The notes under the pieces were generated by a model. The model was not told the DNA's origin. It saw only the letters and a program-made list of their open reading frames with translations, and made no database searches. Made by a program: the position numbers and the translations under genes. Shown here piece by piece: positions 29,519 to 38,723 of a DNA stretch of 64,000 nucleotides. The stretch comes from Actinomycetota bacterium (GTDB lineage: Bacteria > Actinomycetota > Geothermincolia > Geothermincolales > RBG-13-55-18): contig JAQVFR010000002.1 in the NCBI GenBank assembly GCA_028697145.1, positions 87,394-151,393 on the forward strand. The letters run 5' to 3'. Numbering within the stretch: the first letter of the stretch is position 1; every line of letters starts with the position of its first letter.

Positions 29519-30166
29519 TCAAAGGTCTTTGATCTTTTCATAATCCTCCAGGAATCTCTTGATCCCTATGTCCGTCAGGGGATGACGAGCCATCTTCAGC
29601 ATGACGTCGTAGGGAATGGTGGCGATATGGGCTCCGGCCAGCGCCGCTTCGATCACGTGCACGGGATGGCGCAGGCTGGCCGCTATCACCCGGGTAGGGA
29701 TGGAATGGGTGTCGAAGATGTCGACTATCTCCTCCACCACGGTCATGCCCCTGTTGCCGATATCGTCCATGCGCCCAACGAAAGGGCTGACGAAAGTGGC
29801 CCCGGCCGCGGCGGCCAGCATGGCCTGGTTGGCGGAGAACACCAGGGTCACGTTGGTCCTGATACCCTCGCCCGCGAGGACGCTTACGGCCGACAGGCCT
29901 TCAGGGGTCATGGGGATCTTCACGTTTATGTTGGGAGCTATGGCCGCCAGCTCGCGGGCTTCGCGCAGCATCCCTTCCTTGTCCATGCTTATCGCTTCCG
30001 CGCTGATGGGCCCGCTGACCATCCCCGCTATCTCGACCAGGCAGTCCCGCATGCAGCGCCCCTCCTTGGACACCAGGGAAGGGTTGGTGGTCACGCCGGC
30101 CAGGATCCCCCAGCCGACTACTTCCCTGATGTGATCGACGTTCGCGGTGTCCAGAAAAAGCTTCAT
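29519..30166 (-). CDS. tal: Transaldolase (TalC/fructose-6-phosphate aldolase-like)
   Basis: A 215-residue small-type transaldolase for sedoheptulose/erythrose interconversion in the pentose phosphate pathway, or fructose-6-phosphate aldolase. The Schiff-base lysine is Lys83 in INVKIPMT, and the TTNPSL segment near residue 27 is intact. It lies between 2-phosphoglycerate kinase and rho in the same direction. Short TalC-type enzymes are mostly transaldolases, so that is the likelier activity. Confidence 0.92.
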
Positions 30167-30190: not shown

Positions 30191-31150
30191 TCAGAGGAAC
30201 TGCGCCGCTTCCTGCCCCACCTTCTCCTTCTTCGCCATCTCGTAGGCCGCGTTGATGATGTAATCCACCACCTCGGACACGGCGGCGTCGAGGTTGACGC
30301 TCTCCACCGTCTTTACCCCCGTGGCCTCAGCCAGTTGCATGATATAGTCCTGAATCCTGCGTATGTTGTCGAAATGCTCCACGTACCTCTGGAAGGGACG
30401 TGTGCCCTGCGTCTCCACCTCGCGGATATAGAAATGGCTGCGGTGCATCTTCTCGTCGGCGACCGCCACGAGCAGGGGGACGATGAGGGCGTCGGGGAAC
30501 TGCTCCGGCGCGATGAAGCCGGGGACGATGTGCGCTCCCTCGATGATGATGTGCGTCCCCTCCTTGAGGGCGCGGTTTATGATGGCGCGTACCCCCACAA
30601 GCACAGAGAGGCTCTGCTCGCGAAAACCCGCCACCACCGGATCGACGTGCGCCGGGAGCGGGTGCAGGAGCGCCGATTCCGCGTCGAAGGACGAGGTGTG
30701 GATGGTGGGCATGAGTTCGCGCGAGAAGAATGCCCGCATGACCTCCCTGATGGCGTCCGTTGACACGATGCGCACTATGCTCAGGCGGGTGGCCAGCATG
30801 GTCGCTATAGTAGATTTTCCCACGCCCGTCGATCCCCCGATGAGTATCACCAGGGGTTTGTTCATGCTGCTGAATGAGACGTACCGCCAGTAATTGACGG
30901 CGTAGTGTCCGCCTATCTTCTCGGTGAGGAAGTTGTAGATGAGCTTGCGCAGCTCGTTGGCCTGGATCTCCAGCTTGTCCTCGGAGATGAGGTATTCCTC
31001 TATGTCGGCGGCCACGTAATACGCCCTGCCCGGCGCCAGGCCGGAGGCCATGATGGCGTTGGCTGTAAGCCCCTTGGAGAAGGGAACCCGGTGGTGTTCC
31101 TCATCGAGGATGGTTATCCTCTTCTTCAGCTTTCCTTCATCGCCCGGCAT
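30191..31150 (-). CDS. pgk2: 2-phosphoglycerate kinase
   Basis: A 319-residue kinase of the methanogen 2-phosphoglycerate kinase family, which phosphorylates 2-phosphoglycerate to 2,3-diphosphoglycerate. An ATP-cone-like N-terminal region (about 20-60) precedes the P-loop GGSTGVGKST at 105-114 and a P-loop kinase fold. The start is ATG at 31150 (the frame is open to a GTG at 31180), and it overlaps the end of the cyclic-DPG synthetase by 25 nt. The pairing with that synthetase makes the function much more secure than similarity alone. Its product is the substrate of the neighbour. Confidence 0.87.
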   Translation of the reverse strand: MPGDEGKLKKRITILDEEHHRVPFSKGLTANAIMASGLAPGRAYYVAADIEEYLISEDKLEIQANELRKLIYNFLTEKIGGHYAVNYWRYVSFSSMNKPLVILIGGSTGVGKSTIATMLATRLSIVRIVSTDAIREVMRAFFSRELMPTIHTSSFDAESALLHPLPAHVDPVVAGFREQSLSVLVGVRAIINRALKEGTHIIIEGAHIVPGFIAPEQFPDALIVPLLVAVADEKMHRSHFYIREVETQGTRPFQRYVEHFDNIRRIQDYIMQLAEATGVKTVESVNLDAAVSEVVDYIINAAYEMAKKEKVGQEAAQFL

Positions 31151-32484
31151 GATCTCTCCACGACCTTGTCCCAGATGCACTCGAAAAATTTCTCCAGCAC
31201 CGTCTCTCCCGGGAGAGGTACGGGCTGGTTATGAAAGAACGCTACTTCCTTCCCGTTGGCGCGCGCGAAGCGCGTCACCACGTCCACCGCAGCCGCCTTG
31301 AGCTCGGTGAGCACTATATCAGCCCCCGCGGCCCCCTGCAGCTCCTCCTCGAGGCGCTCGCGGTCGGAAAGGCTATGGCTCCTCCCTACTACCGTGCACC
31401 CCTCCTCGTCCTCCAGGTAATCCTGCAGCAGAGTCCCCGCTTCCTCGGGAGCAGTCGAGACAAGAAAAGCTCTCCTGTCTCGGATGGGTTGCAATGGATG
31501 TGGCCTGAAAATCGTTTTCAAGACAACGATATCGCCGTTTATCCTTTTTATCCTCTCGCTGAGCTCCTGGATTTTTAGGGGAGATGCGAACGGTTCTTCA
31601 GCCATTGTAATGATAACCCCATCGGAAATCAAGAGCCGGTACGAGCCCAGGAACCCCAGGGCTTCCTCCAGGTCCTGCGCGGCGCTGATGACGCAAACCA
31701 CTGCATCGGTGGCCACGGGCGGAATGCTGGAGCCGCTGCCCTCCGTGATCACCACGCGCGCGGGGAGCGAATCCGCCAATACGGCCGCCTCGACGCAGTT
31801 GGTGACGAACGGTTCGCCGGCCATGCCTCCGCCGCAACGGCGCGAACCGACGGTCAGCACCCCAGACACAAGTGCGTCCTCGTAGTGATCGGAGGCGGCA
31901 TGCAGACCCTTAGCGAGCTCCGAGAGAAGAAACTCCTCTCCGATACCTTTCTCCTCGACGAGGTATGGCCGCGGCGGTCCGCCCCTCCCCATGGCGACGA
32001 CCACCGGCGTCCGGCCCGACCCGTCCAGATAACGCGCCATCTCCGCGGAAACCGCCGTCTTGCCGCAACGTTTTCCGGTGCCGATAACCGCGCAGGAGGG
32101 CTTGGAGAGCACCTTCTCCCGGCGCGGGGGATGAAACTCGAAGTCGCCGCCGCGGTAGGCCGCGCCGTGTGCCAGGGCCACCGCGGCCAGCCTCATCCTC
32201 AGCGCCGGGCCCAGCACGGGCAGATCGCTGAGGTCCGCGACTAGTCGCGGCCCCAATCTCCTCAACACCCCCGCCAGATCCTGCAGCGGGTCGTCGGGAT
32301 ATATCACCTCCAGCCCGCCTGAAGCCAGCTCCGTGAGGTCCTTCATCTTCTCCGTGCCGCCGATAAAATAGAGCGCGAGCGGCTCGAACCCCTCCCTGTC
32401 CTCCAGCTCGCGCAAGGCGTCGAGAGTCGTGGCGGGGTGGTGCTCCCCGTCAACGAGAAAGAGGGTCGGGATGTTCTCTCCCAT
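31126..32484 (-). CDS. cpgS: Cyclic 2,3-diphosphoglycerate synthetase
   Basis: A 452-residue protein of the cyclic 2,3-diphosphoglycerate synthetase family, which uses ATP to close 2,3-diphosphoglycerate into an intramolecular anhydride. An N-terminal domain with the start FLVDGEHHP leads to a P-loop-like GTGKRCGKT (residues 135-143), a glycine-rich GRGGPPRP (167-174), and a SRRCGGGMAGEPF segment. The start is ATG at 32484 with AAGGTGAG just upstream. It is translationally coupled to 2-phosphoglycerate kinase. The family was characterised in hyperthermophilic methanogens, where the product is a major solute; bacterial homologues are known but little studied. Confidence 0.87.
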   Translation of the reverse strand: MGENIPTLFLVDGEHHPATTLDALRELEDREGFEPLALYFIGGTEKMKDLTELASGGLEVIYPDDPLQDLAGVLRRLGPRLVADLSDLPVLGPALRMRLAAVALAHGAAYRGGDFEFHPPRREKVLSKPSCAVIGTGKRCGKTAVSAEMARYLDGSGRTPVVVAMGRGGPPRPYLVEEKGIGEEFLLSELAKGLHAASDHYEDALVSGVLTVGSRRCGGGMAGEPFVTNCVEAAVLADSLPARVVITEGSGSSIPPVATDAVVCVISAAQDLEEALGFLGSYRLLISDGVIITMAEEPFASPLKIQELSERIKRINGDIVVLKTIFRPHPLQPIRDRRAFLVSTAPEEAGTLLQDYLEDEEGCTVVGRSHSLSDRERLEEELQGAAGADIVLTELKAAAVDVVTRFARANGKEVAFFHNQPVPLPGETVLEKFFECIWDKVVERSCRAMKES

Positions 32485-32594
32485 GGACTCACCTTCACTC
32501 GATACGCACACGTGCCAGGCCCTGCCCTCGCTCCGCTCCGGCATGGCACTGGGACACTGTGTCGAATGTTACAGGGCAGACGTTAGTGTTGGTG

Positions 32595-33416
32595 TCAGAT
32601 GTCCGTGCCGATTATCTCGCGAACTACGCCGGACAGCTCGCGCTGCGTCTCGCTTACCCCCACGCCGAACTGGGCGATGACGTCGCGTCCGCCGAAGGGG
32701 TATTTGCGAAAGACCTTGACCAGGTCCTCCCTTATCTCGATGACGTTATAGCAGGGCTTGGTGTGTCCCCGCAATCGCAACGATGAGATGGTGCCGGCGT
32801 TGACCACGTACATATCCTCGAGCTTCCATACGTAGGGAACATGCTTGTGGCCGGTGAGGACGAGATCGACGCCCGAATATATCAATAGCTCGAGGACGTC
32901 TCCCGCATCGGTGACGATGTTCCGCTCCCTCCCGGTGCCGGGGACTGGCAGCAGGTGATGGTGCAGAGCGAAGATCTTGAAACCCTCGGAGTTATGGAAA
33001 TTGTTGACGATCTTGTAGTATTTCTCTCTTCCGATCTGCCCTGAATCGAGGTCGGGCTCGCTGGAATCCACTCCCATCAGGAATATGCCACCCCACTCCA
33101 TATCCTGGAAAAGGGATCCGAATAGCTCCTGGAAATGCAGGTACCCGACGTTACGGGAATCGTGGTTTCCGGGTATGACCACGATGCGTTCGCATTCCAG
33201 CCCGTCCAGGTATGTCTTGGCCGTCAGGTATTCCTGGCGAAAACCTTCGTTGGTCAGATCTCCCGTGACCACCACGATATCCGGACTCAACTCGTTTATC
33301 TCCAGTATGGTGCGGTTCATGAGATTGGCCACGAAGTGGTAGGAACCGACGTGAAAATCGGAGATGTGGGCGACCAGCAGCGGGGATTTTGATATCGGAT
33401 ATACCCTCAACGGCAT
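32595..33416 (-). CDS. Calcineurin-like metallophosphoesterase
   Basis: A 273-residue metallophosphoesterase with the full dinuclear-metal set: Asp20 and His22 (ISDFHVG), Asp53 (TGDLTN), GNHD, ALHHH and GHKH. It resembles the CpdA-type cyclic-phosphodiesterase group. It lies between the ApgM-like enzyme and the cyclic-DPG synthetase in the same direction. Hydrolysis of cyclic or linear diphosphoglycerate is a context-based guess. A good GGAGCG lies eight bases before the ATG. Confidence 0.88.
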   Translation of the reverse strand: MPLRVYPISKSPLLVAHISDFHVGSYHFVANLMNRTILEINELSPDIVVVTGDLTNEGFRQEYLTAKTYLDGLECERIVVIPGNHDSRNVGYLHFQELFGSLFQDMEWGGIFLMGVDSSEPDLDSGQIGREKYYKIVNNFHNSEGFKIFALHHHLLPVPGTGRERNIVTDAGDVLELLIYSGVDLVLTGHKHVPYVWKLEDMYVVNAGTISSLRLRGHTKPCYNVIEIREDLVKVFRKYPFGGRDVIAQFGVGVSETQRELSGVVREIIGTDI

Positions 33417-33524
33417 GTCCTGTTCGCTCCAATAAATCTCTTACTCGCGGCGCTTGAACGGGGTTCGATTCCTGTCATCGCGCGATATCCATTACCCCCT
33501 CAATATAACACAGTCCGCCGGCTA

Positions 33525-34727
33525 TTATGACCTCCGGGTGCCCTCAACGAGCAGGTCCAGAAGCTGCCAGGCGGGCAGCGCGGCGTAACTCCCGCCCGCC
33601 ACTCCCTTCTCGCTGAACGACCTCCCCCGGTCGGGAACCACGTGCGGGTAATAGACGGCGAAGGGAACGGGGTCGGCCACGTGCGTGCGTACCTCGAGTG
33701 GGGTGAAATGGTCGGGCATGAGCAGGAAGGCGAACTCCTCGCCACTGCGAACCGTCTCGTCCAGAAAGGCGCCCACGATCTGGGCGTCGAAGTTCTCCAG
33801 CGCCTCGACTTTTGCCTCCCAGTCGCCCTCGTGCCCCGCTTCGTCCGGAGCTTCGACGTGCACGTAGACCAGGTCGGAGAAGCGCAGGCTCTCCAGCGCG
33901 TAACGGGCTTTAGCCGCGTAATCGGTGTCGTAATAGCCGGTCGCGCCGGGCACCTCCACCACTTCCATGCCGGCCAGCATACCCAGCCCTTTGATGAGAT
34001 CGACCGCGGTTATGATCGCGCCCGCCAGGCCATACCTGTCCTTCATGGCGGGGAGCTCCGGCAGCCTGCCCTGGCCCCAGGGCCAGATCATGTTCGCGGG
34101 CCGCAGTCCCTTTTCCTCCCTGCGCCGGTTCACGTCGTGATCCGCCAGCAGGCGCCGCGATACGCGCATCAGGGCTGTAATCCTCTCCGCGTTTGGTCCC
34201 CGGGGCCTGACCTCCTCGATCATGCGTCCCACCACGTCATGGGGAGGGGTACAGCGATCCTCCAGGAATTTCAAGCCCTTGAGGACCAGGAGGTGGCGGT
34301 AACCGATCCCGGGGTAGAATGCGGTGTATTCATCCTCCAGTTTTTCGCGCAGGACCCTTACGAGCATCGCGGCCTCCGCCGTGCTGATATGGCCGGCGCT
34401 GTAATCGAGAAGGACTCCGCCGCTCTCGGTGACCAGGTTGCAGCGGAACGCAACGTCGTCGGGACCCAACGCCACGCCCATGCTCACTGCCTCCAGGGGG
34501 CCACGCCCCGTGTAATACCTTTGGGGGTCGTAGCCAAGGATGGAATAGTTGGCCACGTCGCTCCCGGCCGCCATGCCCTCCGGGATGGTCAGGGCGGTGC
34601 CGCATACGCCCTCCCTGGTCAGGAAATCCATGTTCGGTGTACGCGCAGCCTCCAGGGGAGTAGAACCGCCGCGCTCGCTGACGGCGTAATCGGCGGCGCC
34701 GTCCGGCACCAGAACAACGTACTTCAT
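33525..34727 (-). CDS. ApgM-family enzyme: phosphoglycerate mutase or replacement homoserine kinase
   Basis: A 400-residue member of the archaeal cofactor-independent phosphoglycerate mutase family (alkaline-phosphatase superfamily). Metal residues appear in VLVPDGAAD (Asp9) and the likely nucleophile is Ser56 in AAGSDVANYS. The ATG at 34727 has GAGGAG eight bases upstream. It sits where thrB is in the actinobacterial hom-thrC-thrB-rho order, and the same family in such loci has been proposed to be a homoserine kinase. It is also next to the cyclic-DPG genes, which need 2-phosphoglycerate. Both roles fit; sequence does not decide. Confidence 0.88.
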   Translation of the reverse strand: MKYVVLVPDGAADYAVSERGGSTPLEAARTPNMDFLTREGVCGTALTIPEGMAAGSDVANYSILGYDPQRYYTGRGPLEAVSMGVALGPDDVAFRCNLVTESGGVLLDYSAGHISTAEAAMLVRVLREKLEDEYTAFYPGIGYRHLLVLKGLKFLEDRCTPPHDVVGRMIEEVRPRGPNAERITALMRVSRRLLADHDVNRRREEKGLRPANMIWPWGQGRLPELPAMKDRYGLAGAIITAVDLIKGLGMLAGMEVVEVPGATGYYDTDYAAKARYALESLRFSDLVYVHVEAPDEAGHEGDWEAKVEALENFDAQIVGAFLDETVRSGEEFAFLLMPDHFTPLEVRTHVADPVPFAVYYPHVVPDRGRSFSEKGVAGGSYAALPAWQLLDLLVEGTRRS

Positions 34728-34864
34728 CCCCACCACTCCTCGTCTCTCATCTGAGCGCCCTCGCGTAAGACCGGCCCGGCGAAACGCATGGTGCCGTCAC
34801 GTCTCACACCGCGAGGCGGAAGCTCGATGCGACCGCGAACGGGGCCGGAATACGCGCCCCGCCT

Positions 34865-35920
34865 TCAGAGCCCCAGCATCTCCAGTATCGTATCCATGTG
34901 CGGCGGTACGGCCCGCGGCTCCTCCACGCACCTCACCGCCAGGTCCGGGTCCTTGAGGCCGTGACCGGTGAGGACGCAGACCACCAGCGATCCCCGGGCC
35001 AGCTCCCCTCGCCGGAAGGACTTGTAAAGCCCGGCCACCGAGGCCGCGGAGGCCGGCTCCACGAAGATGCCTTCGCTTTCGGCCAGCAGGCGGTAGGCAT
35101 CCAGGATCTCGTCGTCGGAAACCATGTCGATGCTCCCCCGCGATTCCTCGGCGGCGCGCACCGCCCTCTCCCAGCTCGCCGGGTTACCTATGCGGATCGC
35201 CGTGGCCAGTGTCTCGGGGTTCTCCACGACATGCCCCCGCACTATGGGGGCCGCTCCTTCCGCCTGCCATCCCATCATGCGGGGGAGGGAACCGATCCTG
35301 CCGGCCTCGTGATATTCTCGGTACCCCTTCCAGTAAGCGGTTATATTGCCGGCATTGCCTACTGGTATGAAGTGATAGTCGGGGGCCCGTCCGAGCGCGT
35401 CGCATATCTCGAAAGCCCCGGTTTTCTGCCCCTCGATACGATAGGGGTTGAGGGAATTGACCAGCACTATGGGATGGTCATCGCTTATCTTTCGCACCAG
35501 CTTCAGCGCCTGGTCGAAGTTGCCGTCCACGGCGATGACCTTCGCGCCGTGGATCAATGCCTGCGCCAGCTTCCCCAGGGCGATGGCCTTGCTCGGTATG
35601 AGCACGGCGCAGTCGATGCCGGCGCGCGCCGCATAGGCCGCGGCGGAGGCGCTGGTGTTGCCCGTGGAGGCGCAGATGACCGCCTTTGCCCCTTCCTCCA
35701 GGGCCTTGGAGAGGGCCATGGTCATACCCCGGTCTTTGAAGGAACCCGTGGGGTTGAGGCCCTCGTACTTGAGAAAGACCGTCAAGCCAAGCTGCCCGCT
35801 TATGCAGGGGGCTTCCACCAGCGGGGTGTTTCCCTCCAGCAGGGTGACCACGGGCATGCCCTCGTCAACCGGGAGATACTCCCGGTATGCCTCTATCACG
35901 CCTTTCCATGCGCTGCTCAA
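34865..35920 (-). CDS. thrC: Threonine synthase
   Basis: A 351-residue PLP-dependent threonine synthase that converts O-phosphohomoserine to threonine. The Schiff-base lysine is Lys62 in PTGSFKDRG, and the PLP phosphate loop [10 protein letters not shown] is present. It is the short form without the long N-terminal extension. It lies directly downstream of hom and upstream of the ApgM-like gene. Confidence 0.94.
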
Positions 35921-35999: not shown

Positions 36000-37316
36000 T
36001 CATCGCCCTTGCCCTTCATCCACGGCGGGATCTTCCACCCTGATCACGCTGACGATGCGGTTGACCGCCTCCGTCTCCTCCAGCCCCTTCACCGTGGCGC
36101 GCAGGCTATCCTCGCGCACGGCGTGGGTGATGAGGACGATGCGCGCCTCCCGGCCCATGCCGTGCTGGATAACCGACTTGATGCTCACGCCGTTGTCCCC
36201 GAACACGCCGGCGATCCTCGCCAGCACGCCGGGGCGGTCGGGCACGTCGAAGATCATGAAGTAGCGGCAGACGACGTCCGCCATGTCCTTTATGGGCTTG
36301 TCGTAGAAGCAGGTGCATCCCACCATGCGCCCGCCCGAGAGTATGTTACGGGCTATGGAGATCACGTCGCCGACCACGGCGCTCGCCGCCGGCAGCGAGC
36401 CCGCGCCCTTGCCGTAGAACATGAGTTCGCCGACGGCGTCCCCGGAGACGAAGATGGCGTTGTTCTCGTCCCGCACCGCGGCCAGGGGATGGTCGCGGGG
36501 TATCATGGTCGGGTGCACCCTCACGGAAATGCCCTCCGCCTCGTTTTTGGCCACCGCCAGCAGCTTGATGACGTAGCCCATGTCCCCCCCGAAGGCGATG
36601 TCGTCAGGCGTGATACCCTCAATGCCTTCGGTGTAGACATCATCCAGGGTCACGCGCGAGTTGAAGGCCATGGAGGCCAGGATGGCCAGCTTGGCGGCGG
36701 CGTCCTTCCCCTGCACGTCGGCGCTGGGGTCCGCCTCGGCGTAACCCAGGGACTGGGCCCTGCTTATGGCCTGGTCGAAGGAAAGGCCTTCCTCGCTCAT
36801 GCGCGTCAACGCGTAATTAGTGGTGCCGTTCACTATGCCCAGGATCTGCTCTATCCTGTTCCCGGCCAGGCTCTGCTTCAGCGGCAGCAGGATGGGGATG
36901 CCGCCCCCCACACTGGCCTCGTAGGCGACGTCCACCCCCGCCTCTTCGGCCGCCTCCAGTATCTCTCCGCCGTGGGTGCTCATGAGTTCCTTGTTGGCGC
37001 ATACCACATGTTTCCCTGCGGCCAGTGCTTCCAGGATGAATGCGCGCGCGGGCTCGACCCCGCCCATGACCTCGACGACGATGTCCACCTCCGGATCGCG
37101 CAGGACCGCCGCCGCGTCGGTGGTGAGCATGCTCTCCGGGACCTCGACGTAGCGGGGGTCCGCGAGGTCTTTCACCGCGACGCTCTTCAGCCTTATCTCG
37201 CATCCCGTGCGCCTGGAGATGACCTCCGCGTTGTCCCGCAGGATGCTGATCACGCCCGATCCCACGGTGCCGCACCCAATCTGCCCGATGTGAATGATCT
37301 TTTTTTCCTGAGCCAT
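36000..37316 (-). CDS. hom: Homoserine dehydrogenase
   Basis: A 438-residue NAD(P)-dependent homoserine dehydrogenase for the last common step of threonine and methionine synthesis. The N-terminal Rossmann fold has GQIGCGTVGSG, the middle catalytic domain has ANKELMS and a lysine in the EADPSADVQGKD stretch, and a C-terminal ACT domain (about 355-438) suggests threonine feedback. The ATG at 37316 has GGAGG five bases upstream; an ATG at 37343 does not. It heads the threonine genes. Confidence 0.95.
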   Translation of the reverse strand: MAQEKKIIHIGQIGCGTVGSGVISILRDNAEVISRRTGCEIRLKSVAVKDLADPRYVEVPESMLTTDAAAVLRDPEVDIVVEVMGGVEPARAFILEALAAGKHVVCANKELMSTHGGEILEAAEEAGVDVAYEASVGGGIPILLPLKQSLAGNRIEQILGIVNGTTNYALTRMSEEGLSFDQAISRAQSLGYAEADPSADVQGKDAAAKLAILASMAFNSRVTLDDVYTEGIEGITPDDIAFGGDMGYVIKLLAVAKNEAEGISVRVHPTMIPRDHPLAAVRDENNAIFVSGDAVGELMFYGKGAGSLPAASAVVGDVISIARNILSGGRMVGCTCFYDKPIKDMADVVCRYFMIFDVPDRPGVLARIAGVFGDNGVSIKSVIQHGMGREARIVLITHAVREDSLRATVKGLEETEAVNRIVSVIRVEDPAVDEGQGR

Positions 37317-37412
37317 ATGTTCCTCCGGCCTCCGCACGATCATGAATAACGATATTCTACCAGGAAGCCGGGTTTACTATCGAGGCAGGTCGGAGGAGGG
37401 CGGATGCGTGCG

Positions 37413-37427: not shown

Positions 37428-38723
37428 ATGAAACCGAAGGAACCGATATTGCAGGTGGCCCTGGACTTCCTCGACCTCGAGCGCGCCATCCAGGTCGCGG
37501 AGGAGGCGGTGGCCGGCGGCGTCGACTGGATCGAGGCCGGCACCCCTCTGATCAAGAGCGAAGGCCTCAACGCCGTCAGGGAGCTGCGGCGGCGCTTTCC
37601 AGACCGCGTCATCGTCGCGGACATGAAGACCATGGACGCGGGTAGGGCCGAGGTGGAGGCGGCGGCCAAGGCGGGCGCCAACATCATCGACGTGCTGGGG
37701 GCCGCCTCCGACGCCACGGTGAAGGAGTGCGTGGAGGCGGCGGACAACTACGGCGCGGAGATCGTCGTGGACCTCATCGAGGTCGGTGACCCCGTCGACC
37801 GGGCACGCGCCGCGGAGGCGGCGGGGGCGGACTATATCGCCGTGCACACGGCCATCGACGTGCAGATGCGCGGCGGAGACCCCTTCGAGAGGCTCAAGGT
37901 GGTGGCGAACGCCGTGGACATCCCCATCGCAGTGGCCGGGGGGATCAACTCGGAGACGGCGGCGAAGGCGGTGGAGAACGGCGCGGACATCGTCATCGTC
38001 GGCGGCGCCATCATCAAGAGCAAGGACGCCCGCAGGGCGGCCGAGGAGATCAAACGGGCCATGCTCACCGGAGAGGCGCTGAGAACGGAGCTCTACAAGA
38101 GGGTGGACCTGGGCAGCGTCAGGGAGATACTTTTGCGCGTGTCCACCCCCAACATATCCGATGCCATGCACCGCTCCGGCGAGATGGAGGGCATACTGCC
38201 CATCAGCCCCGGGATGAAGATGGCGGGTCCCGCTCTCACCGTGCGCTCCTACCCCGGGGACTGGGCCAAGCCGGTGGAGGCCATCGACCTGGCGGAGGAG
38301 GGCGACGTCATCGTCATCGAGGCGGGCGGCATGGCCCCGGCTCTATGGGGCGAGCTGGCGACCCACAGCGCGATACAGAAGAAGGTTGCGGGGGTGGTCA
38401 TAGACGGGGCCATCCGCGACACCGTGGATATCCGCGCGCTCGGCTTCCCCGCATTCTCCCGCATCATCACCCCCACCGCCGGAGAGCCCAAGGGCTTCGG
38501 CGAGATAAACGTCCCCGTCAAGGCGGGAGGAAAACGCATCTTTCCGGGCGACTGGCTGGTGGGAGACGACGACGGGGTGGTGGTGATACCCAGGGACAAG
38601 GTGGTGGAGATAGCCAACCGCGCCATGGACGTGCTGGAGAAGGAGAACCGCCTGCGTGGGGAAATAGATGCCGGGTCCACCCTCTCCCAGGTCGCCTACC
38701 TGGAAAAGTGGGAGAAGAAGTAA
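37428..38723 (+). CDS. 3-hexulose-6-phosphate synthase / RraA-like fusion
   Basis: A 431-residue fusion. Residues 1-210 are a 3-hexulose-6-phosphate synthase TIM barrel with the phosphate and metal residues around VADMKTMD (Asp65, Lys67, Asp70) and a C-terminal GGINSETAAKAVENGADIVIVGG phosphate site in shorter form. Residues 215-431 are an RraA-like domain with DGAIRDTVDIRALGFP, found in RNase E regulators and 4-hydroxy-4-methyl-2-oxoglutarate aldolases. The pair is known in archaea and some bacteria. No hexulose-phosphate isomerase is in the window. It could run in reverse to make ribulose 5-phosphate, but a transaldolase is also present. Confidence 0.9.
   Translation: MKPKEPILQVALDFLDLERAIQVAEEAVAGGVDWIEAGTPLIKSEGLNAVRELRRRFPDRVIVADMKTMDAGRAEVEAAAKAGANIIDVLGAASDATVKECVEAADNYGAEIVVDLIEVGDPVDRARAAEAAGADYIAVHTAIDVQMRGGDPFERLKVVANAVDIPIAVAGGINSETAAKAVENGADIVIVGGAIIKSKDARRAAEEIKRAMLTGEALRTELYKRVDLGSVREILLRVSTPNISDAMHRSGEMEGILPISPGMKMAGPALTVRSYPGDWAKPVEAIDLAEEGDVIVIEAGGMAPALWGELATHSAIQKKVAGVVIDGAIRDTVDIRALGFPAFSRIITPTAGEPKGFGEINVPVKAGGKRIFPGDWLVGDDDGVVVIPRDKVVEIANRAMDVLEKENRLRGEIDAGSTLSQVAYLEKWEKK

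Follow-up and report, generated by a model that had tools for sequence, protein, structure and literature searches.

The window analysed here, a stretch of 64,000 nucleotides from the metagenome-assembled genome (MAG) of an Actinomycetota bacterium (G000; 2.98 Mb, 97.6% complete), probably holds, at a rough probability of 0.6, a bacterial three-gene unit that would both make and unmake cyclic 2,3-diphosphoglycerate (cDPG), with 2-phosphoglycerate supplied by a separate ApgM. The unit comprises the genes for a metallophosphoesterase (MPE), a cDPG synthetase (cDPGS) and a 2-phosphoglycerate kinase-family protein (2PGK).

32595..33416, minus strand: MPE, calcineurin-like metallophosphoesterase (PF00149); candidate cDPG / 2,3-diphosphoglycerate (2,3-DPG) phosphohydrolase
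31126..32484, minus strand: cDPGS, cyclic 2,3-diphosphoglycerate synthetase; longest open reading frame (ORF) from 32544, likely start ATG 32484
30191..31150, minus strand: 2PGK, 2-phosphoglycerate kinase-family protein; longest ORF from GTG 31180, likely start ATG 31150

Likely starts were chosen by Shine-Dalgarno-like sequences and by where homologues begin in alignments; that of MPE is at 33416. The ATG of cDPGS at 32484 has GAAGGTGAG upstream and gives a product of 452 amino acids, and that of 2PGK at 31150 has GGAGAG upstream and gives a product of 319 amino acids; the two genes then overlap by 25 bp, compared with 55 bp for the longest ORFs. A preliminary description of this DNA had reported four ORFs in a row on one strand, the last two overlapping, and that layout is confirmed.

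By homology, 2PGK would convert 2-phosphoglycerate to 2,3-DPG, and cDPGS, judged also from the identity of its active site, would spend a further ATP on forming the intramolecular phosphoanhydride of cDPG. Linkage, co-occurrence and the presence of its family in cDPGS-bearing methanogens suggest that MPE may hydrolyse cDPG, 2,3-DPG or both in the direction of phosphoglycerate and phosphate. Such a unit could both build up and draw down a pool that holds phosphate, three-carbon units and anhydride energy, taking 2-phosphoglycerate from ordinary glycolysis or gluconeogenesis via the separate ApgM mutase, while the neighbouring ApgM-like gene would serve threonine synthesis.

The synthetase and its linked genes

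Comparison of the window cDPGS by phmmer with PDB entries 8ork, 8oru and 9sxb, all named cyclic 2,3-diphosphoglycerate synthetase, gives E-values of 7.5e-101 to 1.5e-89. Residues 21-444 align to residues 1-434 of 8ork (E 7.5e-101), N-terminal domain included, and the window protein is about 45% identical to the archaeal enzyme. The structure paper on the Methanothermus fervidus enzyme (PMC10690619) lists the residues touching ADP, Mg and 2,3-DPG, and all 12 of the 12 ligand-contact positions named there (ATP/ADP, Mg, 2,3-DPG) are identical in the window protein. In M. fervidus numbering these include Walker A K145/R146 and K149, the Mg ligands T150/D208, the partner-subunit residues E45/K46, and E305, T353, E404 and K406; where the paper prints P335, the solved chain and the window cDPGS both have F. 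In window numbering, E65, K66, K158, R159, K162, T163, D219, E414 and K416 are invariant among 23 bacterial and 5 archaeal cDPGS sequences. The preliminary call of a cDPGS is thus borne out by a near full-length match to a solved enzyme with its ligand contacts kept.

Linkage was assessed over 133 cDPGS loci from 32 families; loci of the same family as the window include Candidatus Solincola (class Candidatus Geothermincolia). Outside family f18, every one of the 101 assessable loci has 2PGK as the next gene downstream of cDPGS, and MPE lies directly upstream in 110 of 130. The 24 loci of f18 all have MPE and cDPGS adjacent, with 2PGK absent from the locus and present elsewhere in the genome. 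Because families f11 and f46 keep the trio intact with no rho gene nearby, the inspected f11 loci lying in a quite different neighbourhood, gene order retained along the chromosome does not by itself account for the linkage; passive synteny around rho as the sole explanation is rejected on the counter-examples of f11, f46 and f18. Of the four-gene order proposed in the preliminary description, then, the MPE-cDPGS-2PGK part recurs across Actinomycetota and the ApgM part does not, lying near cDPGS in only 15 of the 133 loci. One locus with the cassette (L017, from a mine metagenome by its contig name) comes from a record titled Slackia heliotrinireducens, a species name that looks doubtful.

The bacterial survey covered Actinomycetota, as an even sample of 297 genomes with an MPE threshold of E<=1e-25, and the archaeal comparison covered the methanogen phylum. 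Among the 297, cDPGS was found in 163, 2PGK in 165 and both in 161. MPE was found in 162, accompanying cDPGS in 159 of the 163 genomes that carry it and occurring in just 3 of the 134 that do not, and all three genes were present in 157 (Fisher p ~1e-75 for co-occurrence, with shared ancestry ignored). In one AT-rich genome (L153, G246:C90), homologues of MPE and 2PGK are present and cDPGS was not detected. In the cDPGS tree, which is midpoint-rooted only, nearly all families form single clades, and the archaeal sequences form their own clade together with 9sxb. Because the gene tree follows families, it points to vertical inheritance rather than recent import. A recent transfer of cDPGS from archaea to the window genome is rejected, the gene being phylum-wide and its midpoint-rooted tree following families.

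The phosphoesterase, the kinase and the probable product

The assignment of MPE to the calcineurin-like class is clear from its match to PF00149 (66.8 bits, cut-off 21.5, E=4.6e-18) and from a complete set of metal ligands (D20, H22, D53, N84, H85, H152-154, H190, H192). The metal-binding motifs DxH, GD, GNHD, H and GHxH are present and invariant in 22 sequences, and the further motifs GTGRER and GHKHVP, invariant or nearly so, are kept in cassette, paralogous and archaeal members. The folds nearest to its AlphaFold model (pLDDT 85.8) are those of the phosphodiester-hydrolysing enzymes Rv0805 and GpdQ (E 2.6e-14, TM ~0.7). The MPE family occurs in 10 of 11 cDPGS-bearing methanogens, all 11 of which have 2PGK-family genes, and in a wider sample of the methanogen phylum it occurs in 95 of 105 genomes with cDPGS as compared with 7 of 15 without. 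On the strength of its linkage and co-occurrence, MPE is a good candidate for a cDPG hydrolase.

The MPE tree sets 16 of 17 archaeal sequences apart from a clade of unlinked actinobacterial paralogues, the remaining one being a second archaeal copy beside that clade. It comes from a genome of the methanogen phylum (G321) that has two MPE copies (L314, L315), of which the other, about 40 kb from cDPGS, falls in the main archaeal clade. The unlinked paralogues (L153, L156, L157, L299-L308) form a separate subclade found in many cDPGS-bearing genomes, and family f8 seems to have yielded MPE of this type only.

The kinase is placed in its family by two models, NF008994 (314 bits) and NF003259 (305 bits), with E about 1e-91 to 1e-93, and it spans positions 7-301 of the 306 in NF003259, nearly the whole model. 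It combines an ATP-cone-like N-terminus, a weak match below cut-off, with an intact P-loop kinase domain whose motif GG.TGVGKST is invariant in 22 homologues. With the corresponding kinase of a cDPGS-bearing Methanobrevibacter, a protein that clears the 2PGK cut-off, it shares 38% identity; a fold search with its model returned generic nucleoside-monophosphate-kinase-like folds only. The 2-phosphoglycerate kinase of the preliminary description therefore stands as to family membership and falls short of the curated cut-offs. The assignment is good but not formal, and the protein is described as 2PGK-family with a probable specificity for 2-phosphoglycerate.

Several observations weigh against a cDPG make-and-unmake unit. 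Shared ancestry makes the co-occurrence statistics look stronger than they are, and incomplete genomes and relatedness weaken the association of MPE with cDPGS in the methanogen phylum. Families f8, f9, f42 and f45, and some of f13, lack MPE in its slot, and there are also unlinked paralogues of MPE. The cassette kinase lies under both curated cut-offs (305 vs 343 for NF003259; 314 vs 603 for NF008994), while the unlinked f18 kinase (387) and archaeal kinases (384) pass the 2PGK cut-off, so that the substrate of the cassette kinase is less certain. Finally, an HPAEC-based study of Rubrobacter solutes (PMC3505630) names trehalose, mannosylglycerate and DIP and does not mention cDPG; because it quantified named solutes, it argues only weakly, and if f18 is Rubrobacter a large cDPG pool in that family is weakly disfavoured.

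The f18 kinase in question (L145:4334-5287, in G041) scores 387 bits against the cut-off of 343. Because it passes and the window cassette kinase does not, there may be two kinase subtypes in cDPGS-bearing Actinomycetota.

Among the alternatives, the one that survives best is that MPE is an unrelated housekeeping phosphodiesterase that came to lie beside cDPGS by chance, within an anciently conserved chromosome region. The region around rho is indeed broadly syntenic, the fold is a common one, and several families retain cDPGS and 2PGK with the MPE slot empty. However, MPE stays with cDPGS in the relocated units of f11 and f46, and it does so in f18, where 2PGK is absent from the locus. Its near restriction to cDPGS-bearing genomes in Actinomycetota and its frequency in those of the methanogen phylum also count against the housekeeping explanation, which is considered unlikely.

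A less probable alternative, with perhaps one chance in five, is a change of substrate in the bacterial homologues of cDPGS and 2PGK, whose product would then be some other phosphorylated or cyclic compound. The scores of the cassette kinase below the 2PGK cut-offs and the modest identity of cDPGS to the archaeal enzyme would allow this, as would the membership of mevalonate-3-phosphate 5-kinase in the kinase superfamily (98 bits for the window kinase) and the fact that no report of bacterial cDPG was found in open-access titles and abstracts. Nevertheless, every named ligand-contact position of cDPGS is conserved, exactly the two enzymes of the pathway strictly co-occur, and the kinase matches the 2PGK models better than the mevalonate kinase model by more than 200 bits.

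Should cDPG be the product, its use as a store of phosphate and anhydride energy would suit both the carriers from non-hot habitats and the reversible or hydrolysable cDPG chemistry described for methanogens. That cDPG in Actinomycetota serves instead as a thermoprotectant in bulk, the role put forward for it in hyperthermophilic methanogens, is about as improbable as a changed substrate. Named relatives include Candidatus Geothermincola and Solincola, which we take to be hot-spring lineages, and in members from hot springs cDPG may serve as a bulk thermoprotectant. The literature also links cDPG to thermostability (PMC10690619). Yet some carriers, among them sediment and groundwater MAGs and Methanobrevibacter from the gut, come from places that are not hot, going by the record titles, and the Rubrobacter solute survey names other compounds.

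Neighbouring genes and the supply of 2-phosphoglycerate

The three genes lie within a longer run on the minus strand, in the order hom, thrC, apgM, MPE, cDPGS, 2PGK, talC-like, rho, in which the other features are as follows.

36000..37343, minus strand: Hom, homoserine dehydrogenase (NF004976, 555 bits, cut-off 205)
34865..35920, minus strand: ThrC, threonine synthase (TIGR00260, 338 bits, cut-off 167)
33525..34727, minus strand: ApgM-superfamily protein (ORF 33525-34736), best read as homoserine kinase; a neighbour outside the cDPG unit
29519..30166, minus strand: fructose-6-phosphate aldolase/transaldolase-like (talC-like) gene (TIGR00875, 311 bits, cut-off 246)

The talC-like gene, directly downstream of 2PGK, is a frequent neighbour in relatives and is not counted in the unit. 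Divergent from the hom-thrC run, at 37428-38723 on the plus strand, lies a 3-hexulose-6-phosphate synthase fused to an RraA-like domain (NF005442, 601 bits, cut-off 593), which adjoins that run in relatives too.

The ApgM-type gene, with GAGGAG ahead of its ATG start at 34727, belongs to the ApgM superfamily (E=1e-152 to 1e-162) and exceeds the cut-offs both of the older NF003242 'phosphoglycerate mutase' and of TIGR02535 'proposed homoserine kinase' (534.5 bits, cut-off 446.3). Besides this match and its place in the hom-thrC-apgM run, its likely function is indicated by the distribution of the classical homoserine kinase ThrB. In 59 relatives, ThrB is over cut-off in 20 and TIGR02535 in 33, with both in only 1 (Fisher 8e-9), a genome in which the two genes are adjacent (G048:C3:24017-26027). 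In the window genome no classical ThrB was found over cut-off, the best match reaching 46 bits vs 168. The gene is thus best read as a homoserine kinase of the threonine pathway that largely replaces ThrB.

The supply of 2-phosphoglycerate does not need this gene, because the same genome has a separate ApgM (C16:13883-15010) that passes the cut-off of the PRK04135 mutase model (555 bits, cut-off 468); a bacterial-type iPGM was not found there. That the neighbouring gene encodes a phosphoglycerate mutase reserved for supplying cDPG synthesis, as its superfamily, its score against NF003242 and its adjacent position on the same strand might suggest and as the preliminary description had proposed, is very improbable in view of the TIGR02535 match, the gene order, the mutual exclusion with ThrB, its rarity near cDPGS and the second ApgM. 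It is accordingly rejected as a cassette member, leaving a cDPG unit of three genes. What survives of the complete make-and-recycle unit described earlier is the 2PGK/cDPGS pair with its phosphoesterase, for which that reading is reasonable because the phosphoesterase is conserved beside the synthesis pair and co-occurs with it. The correction is a reminder that a gene may be assigned to the wrong pathway because of what lies beside it in a run.

Comparison with known cDPG systems

cDPG was described in 2023 as exclusive to hyperthermophilic methanogens (PMC10690619). The cDPGS gene has been noted in the archaeon Nitrosocaldus, and no bacterial cDPGS was found in the open-access literature naming the enzyme, judged from titles and abstracts; other databases may well contain automatic annotations of such genes in bacteria. 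The conservation of the three-gene unit in many deep-branching Actinomycetota suggests that bacteria may also make and recycle the compound. A broader proposal, held tentatively and at somewhat less than even odds, is that deep Actinomycetota have long had cDPG metabolism and passed it on vertically, with about half of the sampled genomes carrying it, and that the linked MPE subfamily is the cDPG hydrolase of both domains. If true, ideas on the purpose of cDPG would shift from a heat protectant alone towards a store of phosphate and anhydride energy, bacterial enzymes for producing cDPG would become available, and there would be a specific gene to examine for a hydrolase known from biochemistry.

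That hydrolase is a membrane-bound cDPG hydrolase activity of M. thermoautotrophicum (PMC1224877, citing van Alebeek 1994), for which no gene was found named in the literature examined; as cited there, it carries out the same reaction as is proposed for MPE, and MPE homologues occur in the phylum of its source. MPE resembles the Rv0805/GpdQ class in fold and in its calcineurin-like metal ligands. It differs in sequence (about 20% identity), and its GTGRER and GHKHVP motifs recur throughout the MPE subfamily of cDPGS-bearing genomes. The ApgM-type gene is likened to TIGR02535 by its score and its position beside thrC and hom, the function of that family being only proposed by its curators.

The closest known system is the biosynthesis of cDPG in Methanothermus fervidus and Methanothermobacter, with which the bacterial system shares two homologous enzymes encoded in one genome and the ligand contacts of cDPGS. 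The bacterial system differs in being widespread in deep Actinomycetota and in having its synthesis genes clustered, with the phosphoesterase ahead of them; by contrast, cDPGS had no adjoining 2PGK or MPE in those Methanobrevibacter loci that were examined.

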